Source of the DNA: a virus
Virus record (IMG/VR): IMGVR_UViG_3300022693_001868
Coordinates: 1-21,286 of that record
DNA length: 21,286 nt
Reading direction: 5' to 3' (one strand)
Below the pieces are notes generated by a model. That model saw only the letters and a program-made list of their open reading frames with translations. It ran no database searches and was not told where the DNA came from. Position 1 is the stretch's first letter, and each line of letters opens with the position of its first letter. The position numbers and the translations under genes are program-made. This document shows, piece by piece, positions 2 through 17,481 of this stretch.

Positions 2-730
2 TCTGAGGTTTGGGGAGTCGGTCGACAGCACAGTAAGAAACTACATGCCATGGGTGTGCATACCGTTCAGGATCTCACACGAACTGAGCCGCGCAATATG
101 AAAAGCCTCTTTTCTATTGTTATGGCCAAGACGGTAGCTGAGTTGCAAGGCATTTCTTGCATTGAAATTGAACATGCCCCACCCGCTAAAAAACAAATCA
201 TCTCATCGAGGTCGTTTGGCCAACGTGTAACGGATAAAGAATCTTTGTCTGAGGCAATGAGTGATTACCTGCAGTCAGCAGTTAAACGCCTACGTGAGGA
301 CAAAAGCTTATGTGGTTGCGTGATTGCTTTTGCTGAGTCCAATCCATTTGATAAGAACAAACCGTTTTATAAGAAATCAATCAGTGTGGGTTTTGCTGAG
401 CCGACCGACTCTGCTGCAGTCATCAATAAAGCAGTGATGAAGCAAATGAGTGAACTGTTTCAAGAAGGTGTTGAGTTTAAAAAATGCGGTGTGATTTTAA
501 CGTGTATCGAGAATAAAGCCGCTTACATTCCTGACCTACTTAGCGATGTTGAATCCATAGAACGAAATGAGAAGCTGCAGCTTGCAATGGAAGGTGTTAA
601 GGAAAGGTTTGGAGATAAGAAACTTGCAATCGGCCCTTGTAAATTACCGAATCGTGGCTGGTCGATGAGTCGAGGGAGTCTAACGAGGGATTACTTTAGC
701 TGGGAAGGTATGTTGACTGTAAATAACTAA
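2..730 (+). CDS. umuC: DNA polymerase V catalytic subunit UmuC, C-terminal part (5' end outside window)
   Basis: Y-family translesion polymerase subunit, normally active with processed UmuD in SOS mutagenesis. The reading frame is open to the left edge, so the gene begins outside the window; an internal ATG at 50 is not the true start. Visible parts are the thumb helix-hairpin-helix (EVWGVGRQHSKKLHAMGV), the little-finger region starting near SRSFGQRVTD, and the C-terminal extension ending in a W-x-M-x-R...L-x-x-x-Y pattern typical of UmuC/DUF4113. The palm and fingers with the catalytic carboxylates are not in the window. Where the beta-clamp motif (QLxLF) is expected there is only YIPDLLSD, a weak match. 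It points towards the phage lysis cassette and may be prophage cargo or flanking host DNA. Confidence 0.93.
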   Translation, partial: SEVWGVGRQHSKKLHAMGVHTVQDLTRTEPRNMKSLFSIVMAKTVAELQGISCIEIEHAPPAKKQIISSRSFGQRVTDKESLSEAMSDYLQSAVKRLREDKSLCGCVIAFAESNPFDKNKPFYKKSISVGFAEPTDSAAVINKAVMKQMSELFQEGVEFKKCGVILTCIENKAAYIPDLLSDVESIERNEKLQLAMEGVKERFGDKKLAIGPCKLPNRGWSMSRGSLTRDYFSWEGMLTVNN

Positions 731-8776: not shown

Positions 8777-8807
8777 AAAAAAAGCCCCAGGTTAAACACC
8801 TAAGGCT
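8777..8807 (-). terminator. Imperfect intrinsic terminator after tape measure gene
   Basis: Stem AGCC/GGCT plus AGGT/ACCT separated by a 2x2 internal loop (8783-8807), then TTTTTTTATG on the minus strand. It overlaps the tape-measure stop codon (8792-8794). Weaker than the other terminators in the window and possibly a partial one. Confidence 0.55.
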
Positions 8808-11800
8808 GCTTTATTACGTTTAAAGAATTTTACAAATGCTTTTGTACCATCTGGACTAAACAGGTAATCACTCATACTTTCACGCTCATCAACAATCACG
8901 AAGTTTGGATTGAGGTTGACGTTCGGCTGTTGGGTTTTATTGACCTGCCCGACATAGTTCTCCATTTTGGAGTTTTGCTGAGTGAATACTTTTGGTGGAT
9001 CTAAAACCATCCCACCATCTGCATAACCATTCTTGATAGCCTCCCTTAATGCATAAAACCCAGCAGGTCCACCCAATGCAGCAATCTCTTCCTGAGTTAA
9101 AACACCCTCACCGCGGTGAACTAAACCTGCAACATCATATTTCCCACCATAACCAGTAAAACCACCGTCAGCAAAACCTTGCATGGCAACTGAGGAAATC
9201 GTCGCAATTGCAGGCATTAATGCTGCCATCACAGCAGTACCACCCGCAAACTTCTGTGGAAGTGTCATTGCACTAGGATCAGCAAATGCTTGTGTATATG
9301 CTGTCCAAGCAGCGACAAGTGATGAGGCGATTGAAAATGCTTGCTGACCAGCAAAAGCGATTCTATATGCAGTCGATTGCTCACCTGCATTTTCCTTAAC
9401 AGATTGAGTTAATTGCGAAAAAGTATTCTGTCCATCAGATAAAATACCTTGCCACATACTCAACTGTTGCTGATATTGATCTAAAGCAAGCTGCTTGGCA
9501 TTAGCATGATAATCAGCATCTAGAGCTTTTAAATTTTCTAGGTGTAATTCTCTTGCTAACTCCAACAACTCATATTGCTTTTGAACTTCATCTGGCGCTT
9601 CATACTCATTAGTAATTTGAGTAACGCTGTTTGAAAAACGATCAAACTCTGCTTCTTTTGCCTGTTTAGAGGAAATTGTCAAACCAGCATTTTGGTATTG
9701 GAGCGAGTTTTTCCCGTGTTTACTAGCAATTCCATACAGCGCAATAGCATCTTCAGCATTTGCTAATTGCGCCAATAAATCGTTTTTCGAGCTATCAAAC
9801 TTCTCTTGCTGCGCCCGTCGAAAGTTATCAACATCATTCTGATATGCAGCTTTCTGCTTATCGGTATATTCCTTAATTGCAGAGTCATCACCAGCGTACG
9901 CTTTCTGAATTTCAAGAAGGGCTTCTTTGTTATCCTCTGCCATTCGCTCTTCTTCAGTGAAATACATTTGGCGGACATTTTTTTGACGCTCAAGAGAAGC
10001 TTCCTTTTGCGCCTCAATGTCTACCCAGTATTCACCCCAAGCCTTGAGATCTGCGACATTATCCCCACTCAAAACAGTTGCGTTTTTGGATGTATTCCCG
10101 CCTAAGCCAACAAGCCACTTATCAACCTTTCCAGCATATTCACGAGCCTCTTTAGTCTTGGCTGCTGAACCAGTGAACCCCTTTGATAAAAGATCTTGGG
10201 TTCCTTTGATTCCAGCATTGTAAGCTGTGGCTGCATCCACCCAATTACCAAATATCTCGTAAGACTTTGATAAATCTTTTGCAGCAGCTTCAGCTGATTT
10301 AGAAACATTATATGAATCAGCTACTGATAGACCATGTTGCTTTCGGTAAATACTGGTTGTTTGGAAAGGGCCAATTGCTCCTGTAGGGCTTTTAGCTGTA
10401 ATGTTGCCTTTCGACTCTTGAGCCATTACAGCTGCAAGCATATTTTCAGGAATCCCATACTTAGCACCAATGGCATTAAGATTATGCTTTGCATTTAATT
10501 CAGCAACTCTTTTAAGCATTTCTGTTTCAGACTTGGTGAAAGTATAGTTTTTCTGATTATATTCAACCTGTTTTCGATTTGACTCCTCAATTTTCTTTTC
10601 CGATTCTTCACGCGCTTTAATTTGTTGTTGAAGCTTATACCCAGCCTCAACCTGCAAAAACCAAGCCTTAGATGATGTTTCAGAAAAACTCATGCCTGAA
10701 TCTTCTCGCGCATCAGCAAAATAGTTTGCCTTATCACGGTTCCAACCCTTTGCCATGTTTGCAACAATGTAGTTTTCACGCGCTATATCAGCACTTATAT
10801 TTTTAAGTGCCTCTCGTTGCTTTTGCGTGAGCCCAAGAAGTGCTTGCTCCTGAGCTGAAATTGACTTCGCATTTTCATTATTAAGTCTTGTATTTTCTTG
10901 GACCTTTCCAGAGTAAATACCTAAGACTCTTCGCGCATCATCAACTGCTGTTTTTTCTTTACTTACAGACTCTGCTTTTTTATCAATACTAGACTTTGCA
11001 GTATCATTTACCGTTGTTAGAGCATTCACGGCGGTAGCAAGTTCGTTCGAATTTATTTTCCCTAAACGATATTGCTCAAATAATTTTGATGCAGAATCAC
11101 GATCTTTTTCAGATACTTCTGAATTTCGGGTAACAGCATCAATAAGCCCAAGAAGCTCATTCTTTTGCTCACGATAAAGTTTATTTGCTTCATTTAGCTC
11201 ATCTGTAGCCTTGCGAGTAAGCACACGCTGTTGGGTTCTATCCAACTTTTCATACTCAACACGTAGCTCAGCAACAGTTTTTCCTTGGGTGCTTAATGAT
11301 GGATCTAGTGTATCGCTAGACTTTTTCATATAAAGAAAAGCAGAGCCTGCCGCGATCCCCTGAATAGCCAACATGGCTAAACCAGCTGGTCCTCCAAGAA
11401 ATGCCATGGCTCCACGTAGCGCTACCATAGAGCCAGCAGCAATTGAACCAGCTCCAGACAAACCAATAAGCCCAGCTCCAGCTCGAATTGAAAATGCTGT
11501 CAATTGTGCTAATTGAATACTGGTTGCAATTACAGTAGGAACAAGCTTTACAGCCATTGCTGTCGCCACCGCAACAGAAACAGCTTTGATATTATCCATA
11601 TTATCTGCAACGGTCTGAACTACAGGAACAATGTTGTTTATTAAAGTTGCCTGTAAACCATCCCATTGCAAATTTAGAAGCTGGACATTTTCTTTAGCTA
11701 AAGCTAAGTTTTCAATCATTTCATCTGACATGATTGCATTTGCACGCTCAGCTGCATCACCCCATTTTTTAAAGCCCTCACCACCATTTTCTAGCAATGG

Positions 11801-12370
11801 GATGAGTAGTGAAGAATCGGAGATGATAGCCTCCATGTAAAACTTCATGTCATTCTGGGTTGCTCCAACCTTTTGCAGAGAATCATAATAAAGTTGTAAA
11901 GCTTCAGGACCTGATAGTTTTTGAAACTGCTGAATAGTCACACCAACCAATGGAGCAATATTTTCGAAAAAATCCGCTAAAGGACCACCGCCAGTTTGCT
12001 GAAAATCACCAATACGATCCTGCATGTCTTTCATTTTGTCAGCGAAAGACTCGATTGATATGCCAGCTATCTCAGCCCCTTTTGAGTAATATTGAAAGTC
12101 ATGAACCGAGGTATTTGCCAATTGTGAGAACTTCTTAATTTCACTGCCCGTTTGAATCGTTTGATCCGCTAAAGCAACCAAACCACCAACAGAAATACCA
12201 GCAATTGCAGCGCCCAATGCTGTTGCCGCCATTGCAGCAATATCAAAACTATTCGCTATACCTTTACTTGAATTCTTTGCATGACGTTCTGCTTTAGTCA
12301 TAGGCTCGGTGAAGTTGCCAATTTTTGCGACTAAATCAAGGGTTAGTCTACCCAGCGAAGCTGTTGCCAT
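8792..12370 (-). CDS. Tail tape measure protein with embedded lytic transglycosylase domain
   Basis: 1192 residues, the longest gene here, between the G/T chaperone region and the tail-tip genes as expected for a tape measure. It sets tail length: at about 0.15 nm per residue the tail would be near 170-180 nm, an estimate only. The N-terminus (SLGRLTLDLVAKIGNF...AERHAKNSSKGI) and hydrophobic segments around 45-65 and 265-350 are typical. Around residues 640-725 lies a soluble lytic transglycosylase-like domain with AVMAQESKG (catalytic Glu near 652), SPTGAIGPFQ and AATAYNAG, which would help DNA pass the cell wall. The C-terminal region carries FADGGFTGYGG and YADGGMV. A moron block separates it from the chaperone genes. 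Confidence 0.95.
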   Translation of the reverse strand: MATASLGRLTLDLVAKIGNFTEPMTKAERHAKNSSKGIANSFDIAAMAATALGAAIAGISVGGLVALADQTIQTGSEIKKFSQLANTSVHDFQYYSKGAEIAGISIESFADKMKDMQDRIGDFQQTGGGPLADFFENIAPLVGVTIQQFQKLSGPEALQLYYDSLQKVGATQNDMKFYMEAIISDSSLLIPLLENGGEGFKKWGDAAERANAIMSDEMIENLALAKENVQLLNLQWDGLQATLINNIVPVVQTVADNMDNIKAVSVAVATAMAVKLVPTVIATSIQLAQLTAFSIRAGAGLIGLSGAGSIAAGSMVALRGAMAFLGGPAGLAMLAIQGIAAGSAFLYMKKSSDTLDPSLSTQGKTVAELRVEYEKLDRTQQRVLTRKATDELNEANKLYREQKNELLGLIDAVTRNSEVSEKDRDSASKLFEQYRLGKINSNELATAVNALTTVNDTAKSSIDKKAESVSKEKTAVDDARRVLGIYSGKVQENTRLNNENAKSISAQEQALLGLTQKQREALKNISADIARENYIVANMAKGWNRDKANYFADAREDSGMSFSETSSKAWFLQVEAGYKLQQQIKAREESEKKIEESNRKQVEYNQKNYTFTKSETEMLKRVAELNAKHNLNAIGAKYGIPENMLAAVMAQESKGNITAKSPTGAIGPFQTTSIYRKQHGLSVADSYNVSKSAEAAAKDLSKSYEIFGNWVDAATAYNAGIKGTQDLLSKGFTGSAAKTKEAREYAGKVDKWLVGLGGNTSKNATVLSGDNVADLKAWGEYWVDIEAQKEASLERQKNVRQMYFTEEERMAEDNKEALLEIQKAYAGDDSAIKEYTDKQKAAYQNDVDNFRRAQQEKFDSSKNDLLAQLANAEDAIALYGIASKHGKNSLQYQNAGLTISSKQAKEAEFDRFSNSVTQITNEYEAPDEVQKQYELLELARELHLENLKALDADYHANAKQLALDQYQQQLSMWQGILSDGQNTFSQLTQSVKENAGEQSTAYRIAFAGQQAFSIASSLVAAWTAYTQAFADPSAMTLPQKFAGGTAVMAALMPAIATISSVAMQGFADGGFTGYGGKYDVAGLVHRGEGVLTQEEIAALGGPAGFYALREAIKNGYADGGMVLDPPKVFTQQNSKMENYVGQVNKTQQPNVNLNPNFVIVDERESMSDYLFSPDGTKAFVKFFKRNKAALGV

Positions 12371-12389
12371 AACTTTTCCTCAGGCAATA

Positions 12390-12414
12390 AAAAACCGCCT
12401 AAGAGGCGGTTTTT
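12390..12414. terminator. Bidirectional intrinsic terminator upstream of tape measure
   Basis: Stem ACCGCCT/AGGCGGT (12394-12400 and 12404-12410) with a 3-nt loop, flanked by AAAA and TTTT so the stem extends symmetrically. It lies between the exported small protein gene and the tape measure gene, closing the HIRAN/exported-protein block. Confidence 0.85.
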
Positions 12415-12430
12415 GCGTGTTCGTATCAAA

Positions 12431-12775
12431 CTATAGAGACTCATAAGCCTCCATACAGGCTAGATAATATTTGGCTGCATACTCGTTAATGGATTCTTTC
12501 TGATGTTCTTTTGTTGTGTATTTTGATTTGCTGTAAGCATCTCTTAAAATCAACTTCATAAGTGAAGATTCTTCTTTTGTTGCATCACCAGTGGTTATCA
12601 TCTTTTCATTTTGTTCAAGCACACTTGCAAGGGATATCCCACTTTGCCTCAATGTCATTGCAGCTTCAGCCATTGCCATCGCATTCAAACAGTTAGACTC
12701 TTGAGATGCAGTAACCTCTTTTGAGTGGGAATTAAAACTTATAACAAAAAAAGAAATAAATAATATTTTTTTCAT
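12431..12775 (-). CDS. Small exported (periplasmic) protein, moron-like
   Basis: 114 residues with a Sec signal peptide: MKK, hydrophobic core ILFISFFVISF, and likely cleavage near SHS-KE around residue 19. The mature part is helix-rich and has two cysteines (about positions 29 and 108) that could pair in the periplasm. I recognise no family. It sits six bases after the HIRAN gene and before a strong terminator, inserted between the tail chaperones and the tape measure where lambda has no gene. An exported protein in a late operon could modify the envelope, for instance by excluding other phages, but this is inference. The ribosome site is weak, which suggests coupling with the upstream gene. 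Confidence 0.65.
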   Translation of the reverse strand: MKKILFISFFVISFNSHSKEVTASQESNCLNAMAMAEAAMTLRQSGISLASVLEQNEKMITTGDATKEESSLMKLILRDAYSKSKYTTKEHQKESINEYAAKYYLACMEAYESL

Positions 12776-12781
12776 TTTGAT

Positions 12782-13249
12782 TTACACCAAGTCATAAACA
12801 CTGTTAATTGCAAGCCTAACACCATAACTACCAGTGCTATCCTGATCTTTCCACCCGCCATTTATCACCGCAGGTACGGTTTTATTTATAACTCTTCCAG
12901 CTAGTTGGGCAGCCTCGTTCTTGCTTATGTATCCAACCAACAACCCATTAATTTCCACTTTGATTGCATTTTTATCGTACTTATTAAATGGCTCAGAAGA
13001 AACTTTTGCATGACACTGAATAAATTTGGATTTTTCTTCTTTTTTCCCTGCAATTTTAGATAGATTCTTTTGATAAGATTGCTCACCAACTATATCAAAA
13101 TTATAAGCAACTGCCTGCCTACCCATAGATGTAATGTCGCCCATTAAATTTTTTAATAGCTGAGCATCTGTATCACTCTTATGCTTATCTTGGAGCTTGA
13201 CTACCACAATAATAGCTATAACGACAATTATACTAATTACCACCCACAT
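12782..13249 (-). CDS. Membrane-anchored HIRAN-domain protein, moron-like
   Basis: 155 residues. The N-terminal 18 residues form a near-pure Val/Ile membrane helix (WVVISIIVVIAIIVVVKL), followed by a charged linker. Residues about 50-155 match the HIRAN pattern: FDIVGEQSYQKNL, then EPFNKYDKNAIKVEINGLLVGYIS, then an Ala/Leu-rich helix and a final beta part (YGVRLAINSVYDLV). HIRAN domains in HLTF-type proteins bind 3' single-stranded DNA ends; stand-alone bacterial copies are of unknown role. With the positive-inside rule the domain should be cytoplasmic. It lies between the frameshifted T gene and the tape measure, with a terminator just upstream and an AT-rich stretch (13250-13300) that could hold a promoter. 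It pairs with the exported protein downstream. Confidence 0.78.
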   Translation of the reverse strand: MWVVISIIVVIAIIVVVKLQDKHKSDTDAQLLKNLMGDITSMGRQAVAYNFDIVGEQSYQKNLSKIAGKKEEKSKFIQCHAKVSSEPFNKYDKNAIKVEINGLLVGYISKNEAAQLAGRVINKTVPAVINGGWKDQDSTGSYGVRLAINSVYDLV

Positions 13250-13303
13250 AACTTACACCCGCCCCAAATTTATAATTTAGAACAAGATACAAGTTCATTG
13301 GAC

Positions 13304-13326
13304 AAAAAGAAACCTCCCGAAGGAGG
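13304..13326 (-). terminator. Intrinsic terminator with UUCG tetraloop after the G-T chaperone gene
   Basis: Read on the minus strand: CCTCC, loop TTCG, GGAGG, then TTTCTTTTTG (stem 13313-13317 and 13322-13326). The UUCG tetraloop and U-tract make a strong terminator. It starts two bases after the T-frame stop codon (13328-13330). Confidence 0.85.
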
Positions 13327-13327
13327 A

Positions 13328-13651
13328 TTACTTAACTGCGGACAAGCCCTTTTCAAACATTTCATCAACACTGTATTCAACTTCTTCAGGCTCCTTCTCA
13401 TGTGGCATAAAGGAATACGCACTCACATTTTCAGCGCCTTTAGAAGCTAGATATGCTGCCATAAGATTACCAAATCCCTGCTCAATCCTTCTGCCAAAAA
13501 AGAAAGGGCCATACTTTTTACGGTAGGCCCTCCACATTGGTAGTTCAGAAATGCTTATGGTATTTTTTGCTTCTTGGATGGTTCTTCCACCGATTCCGTT
13601 GAGGACGAGTTCGCACCAGAACTCGTTTTCGTCGAACTCTTCTTCAGTGAC
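13328..13651 (-). CDS. Tail assembly chaperone T domain, made as G-T fusion by -1 frameshift
   Basis: In the -1 frame after the slippery site, codons run from GTC at 13651 to the stop at 13328, 107 residues beginning VTEEEFDENEFWCELVLNGI and containing MWRAYRKKYGPFFFGRRIEQ, the usual look of gpT-type chaperone extensions. Joined to codons 1-146 of the G gene this gives a fusion of about 253 residues. An ATG at 13537 could open only the last 69 residues and has no good ribosome site, so I take the fusion as the real product. In lambda the minor G-T product binds the tape measure and recruits tube protein during tail assembly. Confidence 0.85.
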   Translation of the reverse strand, partial: VTEEEFDENEFWCELVLNGIGGRTIQEAKNTISISELPMWRAYRKKYGPFFFGRRIEQGFGNLMAAYLASKGAENVSAYSFMPHEKEPEEVEYSVDEMFEKGLSAVK

Positions 13652-14088
13652 TTTCCCGTAAAATTATTAACCTTATTTGCCGCTTCATAAATCGCATTAA
13701 TAAAGTTGGGATCCGAGGTATAAACGTCCTGAACCGATTCAAAGAAAGGCGTGCCTTTCTCATCTTCACAAATGGAACCAACCAAACGAGATGCCACCAA
13801 CTGCTTTCCATCAATACCTTTTAATTCAGGATTCTCTGGATCTTTCACAACATCCCATTCAAAAGCCTTGGACACCTCTTGTTGAGCTTCAAATGTTAGA
13901 CGCTTTATGAAAACTTGCCCTTCAAGTTCAAGAAATTCATCAATTTGAATTTCTTGCTTACCCACAAGCTCTTTAAGCTCGTCAATGTTCTGTTCAGTGA
14001 CAAGAACGGACCACTTAACAACCTGTTCAACAGGTGCTGAGCTCTGAGTTACTTTGCGCAACTTTTTAAGATTTAATGTCTTAGCCAT
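13555..14088 (-). CDS. Tail assembly chaperone, gpG-like
   Basis: 177 residues, directly after the tail tube gene, with a strong AAGGATAGGTT ribosome region before the ATG. The N-terminal 140 residues have the acidic alpha/beta composition of siphophage chaperones (LKELVGKQEIQIDEFLELEG, KQLVASRLVGSICED). The last 31 residues are low-complexity Ser/Lys/Thr. The slippery heptamer falls at codons 144-146, just before this tail, so the short form ends with the low-complexity tail and the long form continues into the T domain. Together they chaperone the tape measure; neither is expected in the virion. Confidence 0.88.
   Translation of the reverse strand: MAKTLNLKKLRKVTQSSAPVEQVVKWSVLVTEQNIDELKELVGKQEIQIDEFLELEGQVFIKRLTFEAQQEVSKAFEWDVVKDPENPELKGIDGKQLVASRLVGSICEDEKGTPFFESVQDVYTSDPNFINAIYEAANKVNNFTGKSLKKSSTKTSSGANSSSTESVEEPSKKQKIP
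13605..13626 (-). other. Stem-loop downstream of frameshift site
   Basis: Perfect 8-bp inverted repeat ACGAGTTC/GAACTCGT with a 6-nt loop, 24 nt after the slippery heptamer. An alternative stem pairs GAGTTCG, which begins 11 nt after the heptamer, with the same 3' arm (CGAACTC). Either could stall ribosomes and tune frameshifting; the alternative has the better spacing. Lambda itself is not known to need such a structure. Confidence 0.4.
13651..13657 (-). promoter_or_regulatory. Programmed -1 ribosomal frameshift slippery site GGGAAAG
   Basis: The minus strand reads ACG GGA AAG in the G frame, so the heptamer G-GGA-AAG is in the correct phase for slipping to GGG-AAA. It is the same heptamer as at the lambda G/T junction. 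The -1 frame beyond it stays open for 107 codons and encodes a recognisable T domain, which is strong evidence that the site is used. Confidence 0.9.
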
Positions 14089-14097
14089 AACCTATCC

Positions 14098-14568
14098 TTA
14101 AGGAATTGTGCGCATTGTTTCGTTAACACTAGAAGTGCGTTTAAGTGGATAGTTGTAACCAACAAACTGCCCTTTTTCGAATGTACGTTCAGGTGTTTTC
14201 AAGTAACCTTCAAAAGCCCACCACATACGTTCAGGCGGTAGAGTCACAACACCTGCAGCAACAGTTGGCGCTGCATCTGAATGGCTTGAACCTAAATACC
14301 ACATGACTTTTTTACGTGGATCAGTTTTGGACAACGCAAGAATCTTTAAATGTGATTCGTTTTCGTCGTCAAAATCTGTACCAAGAGATCCTTCACCCGG
14401 TGTCTTTTTACCAGGATCAAAATTATCTTCGGCATCATCAAGGCATGTCACATCAATATCTTCTTCAGTGTCATTCCCAAGTGTTAAGTTTTTTGCACAT
14501 TGCACGGTAATAACCTCATTACCGTCAACATAGAACAGTTGCGACTTTTGTACTTTAATACGCGCCAT
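14098..14568 (-). CDS. Major tail tube protein
   Basis: 156 residues, in the expected place between the tail terminator (with the Rha cargo in between) and the G chaperone. The N-terminus (FYVDGNEVITVQCAKNLTLG) and the DVTCLDD...GSLGTDF region are typical of siphophage tube proteins. In these the sequence folds as a beta sandwich with a long loop and polymerises in rings around the tape measure. RMWWAFEGYLKTPERTF near residues 113-129 resembles the conserved second half of the family. The stop is nine bases before the G gene start. Confidence 0.85.
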   Translation of the reverse strand: MARIKVQKSQLFYVDGNEVITVQCAKNLTLGNDTEEDIDVTCLDDAEDNFDPGKKTPGEGSLGTDFDDENESHLKILALSKTDPRKKVMWYLGSSHSDAAPTVAAGVVTLPPERMWWAFEGYLKTPERTFEKGQFVGYNYPLKRTSSVNETMRTIP

Positions 14569-14639: not shown

Positions 14640-15158
14640 TTATTCAAATAGACATGGCTGAATTTGCCGATCCACATTTGCAATAGCGGTTTCAAGAACA
14701 TCACGTTGTTTTTTCCATTGAGACAAACCACGACCGCATTCACTAGCTATATCTTTCTCGCAGTCTAATTTTGCGCTAAGTGCTTCACGTTTTTGGATTA
14801 GAGAAAAATAGTCTGTTTGTAGAAGTGCACGTGCCTCAAAGAATGCTCGAACTAATGCTTTCTTGAACTGGCGCACCTTTGGGCTGTTCCGCATGTAGGT
14901 TAAAAGCAAGGTAGCCTGCTGCTCATTTAGGACAGCATACTGTAAAGAGTGCCCATAACCACCTTGGGGAAGTGGTGCACCCATCCGCATTTCAAATGCC
15001 AATGGGCCAAACTCATCAAAATCTGACTTATAGCTTCGCACCAACTGGATTATGGACTTATGCTGAATACCCAAACCAAGTGCGATTTGTAAAGTTGTGG
15101 TTTTTGGCACACCTTTTTCAACATCAACAATTTTTATAACTTCAATTTTTGCATTCAT
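14640..15158 (-). CDS. rha: Rha-family phage regulatory protein (moron in the tail module)
   Basis: 172 residues. The N-terminal 115 residues match the phage Rha domain: TTTLQIALGLGIQHKSIIQLVR near the start, then FEMRMG, GGYGHSLQYAVLNEQQATLLLTYMRNS and VRQFKKALVRAFFEAR. The C-terminal 60 residues are a Lys/Glu/Gln-rich helix, probably a coiled coil. Rha proteins are known from lambdoid phages as host-interaction or regulatory proteins and contain a KilA/Bro-like DNA-binding region; the exact target is unclear. It has a strong AAGGAG ribosome site, a terminator on each side and a 9-bp inverted repeat just upstream (15184-15218). This is an unusual location, inside the tail genes between the tail terminator and tube genes. 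Confidence 0.85.
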   Translation of the reverse strand: MNAKIEVIKIVDVEKGVPKTTTLQIALGLGIQHKSIIQLVRSYKSDFDEFGPLAFEMRMGAPLPQGGYGHSLQYAVLNEQQATLLLTYMRNSPKVRQFKKALVRAFFEARALLQTDYFSLIQKREALSAKLDCEKDIASECGRGLSQWKKQRDVLETAIANVDRQIQPCLFE

Positions 15159-16434: not shown

Positions 16435-16785
16435 CTATTTCTCTACACCGTGACTGAGCATCAAAGTGCAGTAGATTTTGCCATTTTCAGCATCGGGTAA
16501 AGGTTCACCCGTGATGCTATAAATTTTTCCATCGTAAACAACACGCATGGTTGTATCGATATCGGATCGCTTACGGATCTTACAGCGCGCAACAATTTCG
16601 GAATTATTGGCCTGAGCAACCAATGTGTCTTTGACTGAAAGCCATGTGACCTTCGCCCAAAGAGTTGCATGTGTGGACCATACTGGATCTAGGATGTTGC
16701 CATCGTCATCACGTGCGTCATCACGTGACGAAGTTTCCTTTTTAATGCGGATGCGGTGGCAGAGTTCGCCTGCAAGTAGACTCAT
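16435..16785 (-). CDS. Head-tail adaptor (SPP1 gp16 / HK97 gp9-like)
   Basis: 116 residues from the ATG at 16785, which overlaps the connector stop as ATGA and follows GGGTG at good spacing. An in-frame start at 16884 would overlap the connector gene by 100 nt and is less likely. The sequence begins MSLLAGELCHRIRI, then DPVWSTHATLWAKVTWLSVKD, and has a beta-rich second half (MRVVYDGKIYSITGEP), the layout of phage head-tail joining proteins (Phage_H_T_join). It sits between the gp6-like connector and the tail interface proteins and probably forms a ring below the portal. Confidence 0.82.
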   Translation of the reverse strand: MSLLAGELCHRIRIKKETSSRDDARDDDGNILDPVWSTHATLWAKVTWLSVKDTLVAQANNSEIVARCKIRKRSDIDTTMRVVYDGKIYSITGEPLPDAENGKIYCTLMLSHGVEK

Positions 16786-17108
16786 AAATTCACCCATCGG
16801 TGGCGCTTCCAAAGCCAATCTGTTGCTTGAGGCAAATTTGTTGAAATCGTACCTAGTACAACCGACTCTCTGTTTGCATACCAATGACCAATAAGCATGT
16901 GAGCACCTTGTATAATCGATTTACTCACATGCATACCATTGCCTACATCTTCAGGAATAACTTCACCAACTACGTAAAGTTTACGATTGGTACTTTGCTC
17001 AAAGGCTTCAAATGCAGCATCAATCAAACCTTCAATCAAATCATCTTCATCATCGTGATCAATACGAAGATTAAGCTTGACCTGTTCCTTCGTTAGAAAC
17101 TGCGGCAT
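16782..17108 (-). CDS. Head-tail connector, HK97 gp6-like
   Basis: 108 residues starting MPQFLTKEQVKLNLRIDHDDEDDLI, followed by an alpha-helical region (GLIDAAFEAFEQSTNRKLY) and PQATDWLWKRHRW near the end, the pattern of gp6-type connectors that form a ring under the portal. The ATG at 17108 has AAGGTG about seven bases upstream. In this sequence the gene is also in frame with the upstream broken head gene and its Met-Pro repeat, so a longer fused product of about 218 residues from 17438 is possible. I take 17108 as the natural start because the family usually begins at this motif. It overlaps the adaptor as ATGA. Confidence 0.82.
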   Translation of the reverse strand: MPQFLTKEQVKLNLRIDHDDEDDLIEGLIDAAFEAFEQSTNRKLYVVGEVIPEDVGNGMHVSKSIIQGAHMLIGHWYANRESVVLGTISTNLPQATDWLWKRHRWVNL

Positions 17109-17438
17109 TTTTAGCACCTTTTCCACGTTTTGGCTTTGTAACTTCTGGCTGCTCGGCATCGGCATCGGCATCGGCATCGGCATCGGCATCGGCATCGGCA
17201 TCGGCATCGGCATCGGCATCGGCATCGGCATCGGCATCGGCATCGGCATCGGCATCGGCATCGGCATCGGCATCGGCTCGGCAGATGATTCAACAAGAAT
17301 GGCTACTTGCAAATGATTAATCGCAATATCTGCAATTCGCTCTTCAACGTCATGAATACCTGGTTCAATCTCAATCACTTTATTGCCGTTTTCTACTGCA
17401 ATTTTAAATTGCTTATGTACTTCAATTACTGGTGGCAT
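17071..17438 (-). pseudogene. Small head-associated protein gene with a 1-nt frameshift at a hexamer repeat
   Basis: The ATG at 17438 follows a strong GGAGG site and opens MPPVIEVHKQFKIAVENGNK...VAILVESSAEP. The frame then enters the repeat as Met-Pro. One nucleotide away, the same DNA reads Ala-Asp repeats followed by EQPEVTKPKRGKGAKNAAVS and a stop at 17071, a Lys/Arg-rich ending that makes a natural C-terminus for this type of small phage protein. The 368-nt span is one base short of 123 codons, so a single base seems missing near 17275-17280. As it stands the N-terminal part is fused in frame to the gp6-like connector. Either a real mutation or a sequencing error in the repeat could explain it. 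Function of the family is not established here; a head decoration or joining role is inferred from position. Confidence 0.65.
17155..17274. repeat. Perfect hexanucleotide tandem repeat, 20 copies of GGCATC (GATGCC on the minus strand)
   Basis: 120 bp without a single mismatch. Depending on frame the minus strand gives Asp-Ala, Met-Pro or Cys-Arg dipeptides. Copy-number changes keep the frame because the unit is a multiple of three. The tract is purely tandem, without spacers, so it is not a CRISPR. Confidence 0.98.
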
Positions 17439-17453
17439 ATTCTTTCCTCCAAT

Positions 17454-17481
17454 AAAAATGACCCTCAATTTGAGGGCCATT
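17454..17481 (-). terminator. Intrinsic terminator after the major capsid gene
   Basis: Stem CCCTCA/TGAGGG (17462-17467 and 17471-17476), extended by AATG/CATT around one mismatch, then ATTTTTATTG on the minus strand. It lies 13 nt after the capsid stop and upstream of the small head gene's ribosome site. Confidence 0.82.

Follow-up and report, generated by a model that had tools for sequence, protein, structure and literature searches.

A membrane-anchored HIRAN protein from a prophage tail-gene slot as a candidate for superinfection exclusion

Introduction

Why would a temperate phage encode a HIRAN domain behind a membrane helix, in the midst of its tail genes? This question is raised by the TM-HIRAN gene (TM, transmembrane) on a 21-kb fragment of a temperate-type, HK97-like siphophage, taken from the IMG/VR virus record IMGVR_UViG_3300022693_001868; the whole fragment of 21,286 nucleotides is called the window below. 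Among the named phages of the collection, those of Acinetobacter are closest to the window. We propose, giving it an even chance, that the product is an accessory protein of the inner membrane, expressed from the prophage, and that it acts in superinfection exclusion by interfering with incoming DNA. The gene and its parts are located as follows:

12782..13249, minus strand: TM-HIRAN gene, 155 amino acids, with one transmembrane helix, a linker and a HIRAN-family domain
13199..13249, minus strand: transmembrane helix, residues 1-17, MWVVISIIVVIAIIVVV, predicted N-out/C-in
12785..13108, minus strand: HIRAN domain, residues ~48-155, with the family motif FDIVGE..YQ, then F-N-K-Y-D-K-N-A and VGYISK

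Assignment of the soluble domain to the HIRAN family

A HIRAN domain had been read from the sequence in the original prediction. Taken singly, the window protein matches Pfam PF08797 with 20.9 bits, below the cut-off of 24.7 (E 3e-4, core residues 82-118), and phmmer aligned it to the HLTF HIRAN domain with E 0.003. With a profile built from 28 relatives, the match to HIRAN of human HLTF reached 5e-8 and that to 3k2y (lp_0118), a bacterial HIRAN structure, 1e-4. PF08797 was matched individually by 27 of the 28 relatives, and its cut-off was exceeded by relatives aligned over the full domain (records of L017, L021, L031, L040, and L043). The single protein thus stays under the Pfam threshold, and the assignment holds because family profile and relatives match. 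Judged by sequence comparison, residues ~48-155 belong to the HIRAN family, and it is the relatives that settle this. The profile was also required to find relatives, as a search of genome contigs with the single window protein gave no match.

The fold was then compared by prediction. The AlphaFold2 model of the domain alone had a pLDDT of 90 and a pTM of 0.82, and in a Foldseek search of the PDB its top 17 matches were all HIRAN domains (probability 0.94-1.00, E 0.003-0.05) at TM-scores of just 0.28-0.47. The modeled domain therefore agrees with HIRAN in ranking, without close superposition on the six-stranded barrel with two helices.

The open reading frame is kept at 92-100% in three IMG/VR contigs. 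Between the window and the related locus L004, the HIRAN domain shows a nonsynonymous divergence (dN) of 0.026 and a synonymous divergence (dS) of 0.361 (dN/dS ~0.07); it evolves under purifying selection. PADLOC returned a weak match of the protein to the defense candidate PDC-M03B (E 1.4e-4), for which our literature search found no paper.

Membrane anchoring and topology

The tethering to the membrane was likewise correctly predicted. The helix at residues 1-17 of the window protein has its counterpart in the Acinetobacter relatives, which we found in 31 of 149 genomes; all 30 that were read have a single N-terminal membrane helix. No charged residue precedes the helix of the window protein, and lysine or arginine residues follow it. 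Counted over 23 helix-bearing family members, one such residue lies before the helix and 76 lie within 15 residues after it. This positive-inside count predicts a cytoplasmic position of the HIRAN domain at the inner membrane.

Membrane tethering was also considered as a general rule for HIRAN proteins. In a sample of PF08797 hits from two phyla, most on the Bacillota side are large helicases and many from Pseudomonadota look exported, so that tethering characterizes this subfamily. Those Pseudomonadota proteins (L108, L111-L116, L118, L072, and L073) carry a Tat- or Sec-like signal, which would place HIRAN in the periplasm, a compartment that excludes any part in fork repair. For the helix-less relatives (MGLF..LFG type), an amphipathic N-terminus was rejected because the hydrophobic moment was not significant.

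A variable slot between tail protein T and the tape measure gene

On the minus strand, the window genes run in the order terminase, portal, protease, capsid, tail tube, tail chaperone, tail protein T, TM-HIRAN gene, phrog_2315 gene, and tape measure. The TM-HIRAN gene and its downstream neighbor thus occupy a slot with the following surroundings:

14098-14568, minus strand: tail tube
13555-14088, minus strand: tail chaperone
13328..13537, minus strand: tail protein T, upstream limit of the slot
12431..12775, minus strand: second gene of the HIRAN unit, 114 amino acids, signal-peptide-like N-terminus, phrog_2315 (unknown function), E 4e-22
8792..12370, minus strand: tape measure protein with SLT domain, downstream limit of the slot

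A TM-HIRAN gene was found in this slot in L002-L004, L014-L016, L173, L181, and the chromosomal prophage L081. Compared with the window, L014-L016 are 32-35% identical in the tail tube, 35-41% in the tape measure, and 52-55% in the HIRAN protein; for L081 the values are 45% (tail tube) and 60% (HIRAN). A lipoprotein gene replaces the phrog_2315 gene in L014-L016, and in the related phage fEg-Aba01 the slot holds a lipoprotein alone, without a TM-HIRAN gene. Indeed, the gene is missing from the slot in most of the 80 related loci, and the cargo varies. Going by gene order, the TM-HIRAN gene is an accessory gene (“moron”) placed between phage genes and absent in relatives. In L173 (5141-5467) the slot copy stops early, within the domain.

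The cargo has an envelope character. At 79 of 80 loci, at least one slot gene has a lipobox, a signal peptide or an N-terminal membrane helix. Such features occur in 43 of 58 distinct slot proteins and, among the remaining phage proteins, in 40 of 361 (odds ratio 23; Fisher p 4e-23); the loci are mutually related and the features heuristic, hence the p-value serves as a guide, and the contrast is large. Slot proteins were counted in a start-neutral way. This supersedes an earlier count with starts chosen by Shine-Dalgarno (SD) sequence (38/74 vs. 46/439), which had picked internal starts. Over the slots read (window 12371-13327; L003, L004, L014-L016, and L167-L246), lipoproteins and secreted or membrane proteins prevail, and Arc-like plus KilA-N/BRO-N regulators sometimes occur. 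One KilA-N-like slot gene (L004, 2289-3260) matches the PADLOC defense candidate PDC-S22 at 4.5e-9. HK97 holds Gp15, annotated as a moron, in the equivalent slot, from the tail chaperone gene to the tape measure gene.

Insulation of the gene from the tail operon

The original prediction had called the gene a phage late gene. Three elements around it bear on this:

13304..13326, minus strand: intrinsic terminator between tail protein T and the HIRAN unit, CCTCCTTCGGGAGGTTTCTTTTT
13250..13295, minus strand: RNA hairpin pairing the ribosome-binding site (GGGGCGG) of the HIRAN gene, z -5.4
12389..12414, minus strand: intrinsic terminator between the HIRAN unit and the tape measure gene, AAAACCGCCTCTTAGGCGGTTTTTT

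The hairpin lies directly before the start codon; none of 200 shuffled sequences was as stable, and the SD sequence is fully paired. In this the gene differs from all other genes tested in the window, where the sole comparably stable leaders (genes starting at 12370, 8763, and 16133) are terminators and leave the ribosome-binding site free or nearly free. A hairpin burying the ribosome-binding site is clear in L003, L004, L015, L016, and L173 (fully in L173) and partial or weaker in L014, L181, and L081. Its sequence in L015 and L016 is unrelated to that of the window. At the leader of solitary chromosomal relatives we found no significant hairpin. Terminators of differing sequence occupy the equivalent places in most relatives. 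With the terminator pattern, no upstream match was obtained in L003, L014, and L081, nor a downstream one in L081, though in L003 and L081 a similar stem and T-rich stretches are visible at these positions.

An arrangement of this kind is known from the T4 genes I-TevI, segB, and mobE, in which a hairpin burying the ribosome-binding site silences read-through mRNA and translation takes place on mRNA that starts at an internal promoter (PMC2988022). The insulation by terminators and hairpin makes it probable that the TM-HIRAN gene is expressed from its own promoter in the lysogen and that the product is not a part of the virion. An ordinary late gene, with a role in the virion or its assembly and translated with the tail operon, would fit the shared strand amid tail genes. 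Such a gene would hardly be flanked by terminators on both sides, have its ribosome-binding site fully buried and be absent from the fEg-Aba01 slot and most of the 80 loci, and we regard this explanation as highly improbable. Of the “late gene” claim, the position among tail genes stands, whereas expression with the late tail operon is not supported.

Pocket residues and DNA-end binding

HIRAN domains bind DNA ends (PMC8262856), and the title of a study cited there reports binding of 3′ DNA ends by the HLTF domain. In HLTF, the N90/N91 pair is required for HIRAN function, which is abolished by the double mutation (PMC4666394). Across the 28 relatives, V54, G55, E56, Q60, A81, D92, A95, G106, and G131 are invariant and Y59, N89, and V105 nearly so. 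The equivalents of HLTF N91 and Y93 are kept as N89 and Y91; the alignment of HLTF Y72 is uncertain. DNA-end binding by the window protein is plausible.

A different view is that the protein excludes phages without binding DNA, like HK97 gp15 or TP-J34 Ltp, by acting on the tape measure protein or a host entry complex, with the HIRAN fold as a protein-binding module. Known prophage exclusion proteins do act on tape measure proteins (PMC10883804; PMC3952083), which supports this view, as does the slot shared with gp15 and adjoining the tape measure gene. Chromosomal paralogues that lose the pocket motif and retain fold and helix point the same way. However, the pocket residues N89, D92, A95, and G106 are invariant or nearly so across 28 diverse relatives, and the prediction places the soluble domain in the cytoplasm. 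Both argue against an action without DNA, which we consider unlikely.

Genomic contexts in the wider family

If the domain binds DNA ends, as HIRAN domains do (PMC8262856), the ligand could also be transforming DNA. The protein would then catch single-stranded DNA entering via ComEC and spare the prophage from deletion by recombination. Acinetobacter is naturally competent, mobile elements there profit when transformation is partly inhibited (PMC12637031), and the presence of the family in 31 of 149 Acinetobacter genomes is in line with such a function. The other slot cargo and HK97 gp15 point to phages instead, and relatives occur in many lineages that are not known to be competent. An anti-transformation role is thus rather improbable.

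TM-HIRAN genes from outside Acinetobacter have an integrase gene (L033), an S24 repressor gene (L037) or a phage regulator gene (L021) nearby, and helix-less relatives adjoin an XRE regulator gene (in a Nostoc phage) or a terminase gene (L017). In a Streptococcus phage, the relative adjoins the integrase gene. Such neighbors in other mobile elements count in favor of the exclusion proposal. The Streptococcus context would also suit a sensor of DNA ends that is bound to the membrane and modulates prophage induction, as perhaps the pneumococcal thaL product does. The window gene, on the contrary, lies in the tail region, does not adjoin a lysogeny repressor or integrase gene, and encodes no signaling domain. 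We deem a role as lysogeny sensor very improbable here.

A model for exclusion of incoming DNA

We return to exclusion acting on DNA. A temperate HK97-type Acinetobacter siphophage would carry the moron, whose product would be anchored in the inner membrane by its one N-terminal helix with the HIRAN domain in the cytoplasm. The two terminators and the hairpin would insulate the gene from the tail operon, and the hairpin would block translation of read-through mRNA. The HIRAN domain would sit where foreign linear DNA enters the cytoplasm and obstruct the DNA there, most simply by gripping a free (3′) end, so that the genome could not circularize or be used. A cytoplasm-facing domain of an end-binding type at the inner membrane, encoded in an exclusion slot, suggests such interference with entering DNA.

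A possible ligand is offered by the 3′ cohesive ends of HK97-type genomes. fEg-Aba01, whose large terminase subunit (TerL) is 76% identical to the window terminase, has HK97-type 10-nt 3′ cohesive ends (PMC7354433). In its most specific form, which is tentative and in our estimate doubtful, the model describes an entry barrier without nuclease: a membrane-bound, 3′-end-binding HIRAN domain would capture HK97-type genomes of superinfecting phages by their emerging cohesive 3′ ends and stop their circularization, and self DNA would be spared, since free ends at the membrane would occur only on entering DNA.

Several observations weigh against an exclusion protein that acts on DNA. A scan of the 155 amino acids returned HIRAN as the sole domain above noise and no nuclease domain; GIY-YIG and DUF4041, the domains of the nuclease SNIPE, were not found in it. 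The equivalent of HLTF N90 is F88. Two chromosomal paralogue subgroups of Acinetobacter (L085-L093 and L094-L106) keep the helix and are without the N-x-x-D-x-x-A pocket motif, so that end binding is not to be assumed for the whole family, and the general role may differ. Close relatives stand alone in Acinetobacter chromosomes outside prophages (L029 and L030). A promoter scan upstream of the HIRAN gene gave none above threshold; AT-rich, -10-like stretches in the hairpin were not counted as promoter evidence. Finally, we found no phenotype for any relative.

If the proposal is right, a DNA-end-binding domain known from fork repair would act where DNA enters across the membrane, encoded in a slot in which phages exchange envelope-acting cargo. 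Should entry be blocked, self and foreign DNA would be told apart by place and free ends, with no nuclease. One small gene thus offers a system for the role of bacterial HIRAN domains, and in Acinetobacter prophages, the slot flanked by the tail protein T and tape measure genes is a place to seek further exclusion genes.

Other features of the window

Three further features were recorded outside the slot. A gene for a Rha-like regulator lies amid the tail genes (14640-15158); L003 has no match to it and L016 has it in two frames. An open reading frame at 16782-17480 contains about two dozen Met-Pro repeats, encoded by a hexanucleotide repeat, possibly a contingency tract. At the window edge, on the opposite strand (50-730, plus strand), lies a partial Y-family polymerase gene with a UmuC-like C-terminal IMS_C domain.

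Comparison with known systems

Four known systems resemble the window protein in part. HK97 Gp15 is an exclusion protein with a predicted inner-membrane location; hybrids of HK97 that carry the tail tube and tape measure genes of HK022 escape its exclusion (PMC10883804). Both proteins are small, predicted at the inner membrane and encoded in the equivalent slot, and a putative terminator is annotated after the gp15 gene. Compared by description, gp15 differs in its length of 62 amino acids and is not described with a HIRAN domain.

SNIPE is a membrane-bound nuclease that defends at the step of DNA entry (PMC13190303). It has an N-out single membrane helix near the N-terminus, a cytoplasmic DNA-binding part, and action at phage DNA entry; for the window protein, the same topology is predicted, and DNA binding and action at entry are proposed. 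Unlike the window protein, it has DUF4041 and a GIY-YIG nuclease. SNIPE is thus an example of a DNA-binding protein that is anchored in the membrane and acts at injection, there by means of a nuclease that the window protein lacks.

The HIRAN domains of HLTF and Rad5 (PF08797) are similar by profile and by ranking in the fold search. The eukaryotic members are soluble parts of large helicases, whereas the window HIRAN domain stands alone on a membrane anchor and carries FD[IV]VGE..YQ as an N-terminal motif.

Closest in kind is thaL of a pneumococcal prophage, a gene named for transmembrane-HIRAN that is mentioned once, with no test reported (PMC12637031). Beyond thaL, our literature search, mostly without subscription papers, found no description of a membrane-tethered HIRAN protein. 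Both genes are prophage-encoded and combine a transmembrane helix with a HIRAN domain; thaL, again compared by description, sits in a lysogeny module and in a Gram-positive host. The prophage TM-HIRAN kind is thus already known from thaL, and the window gene adds a variant to it.
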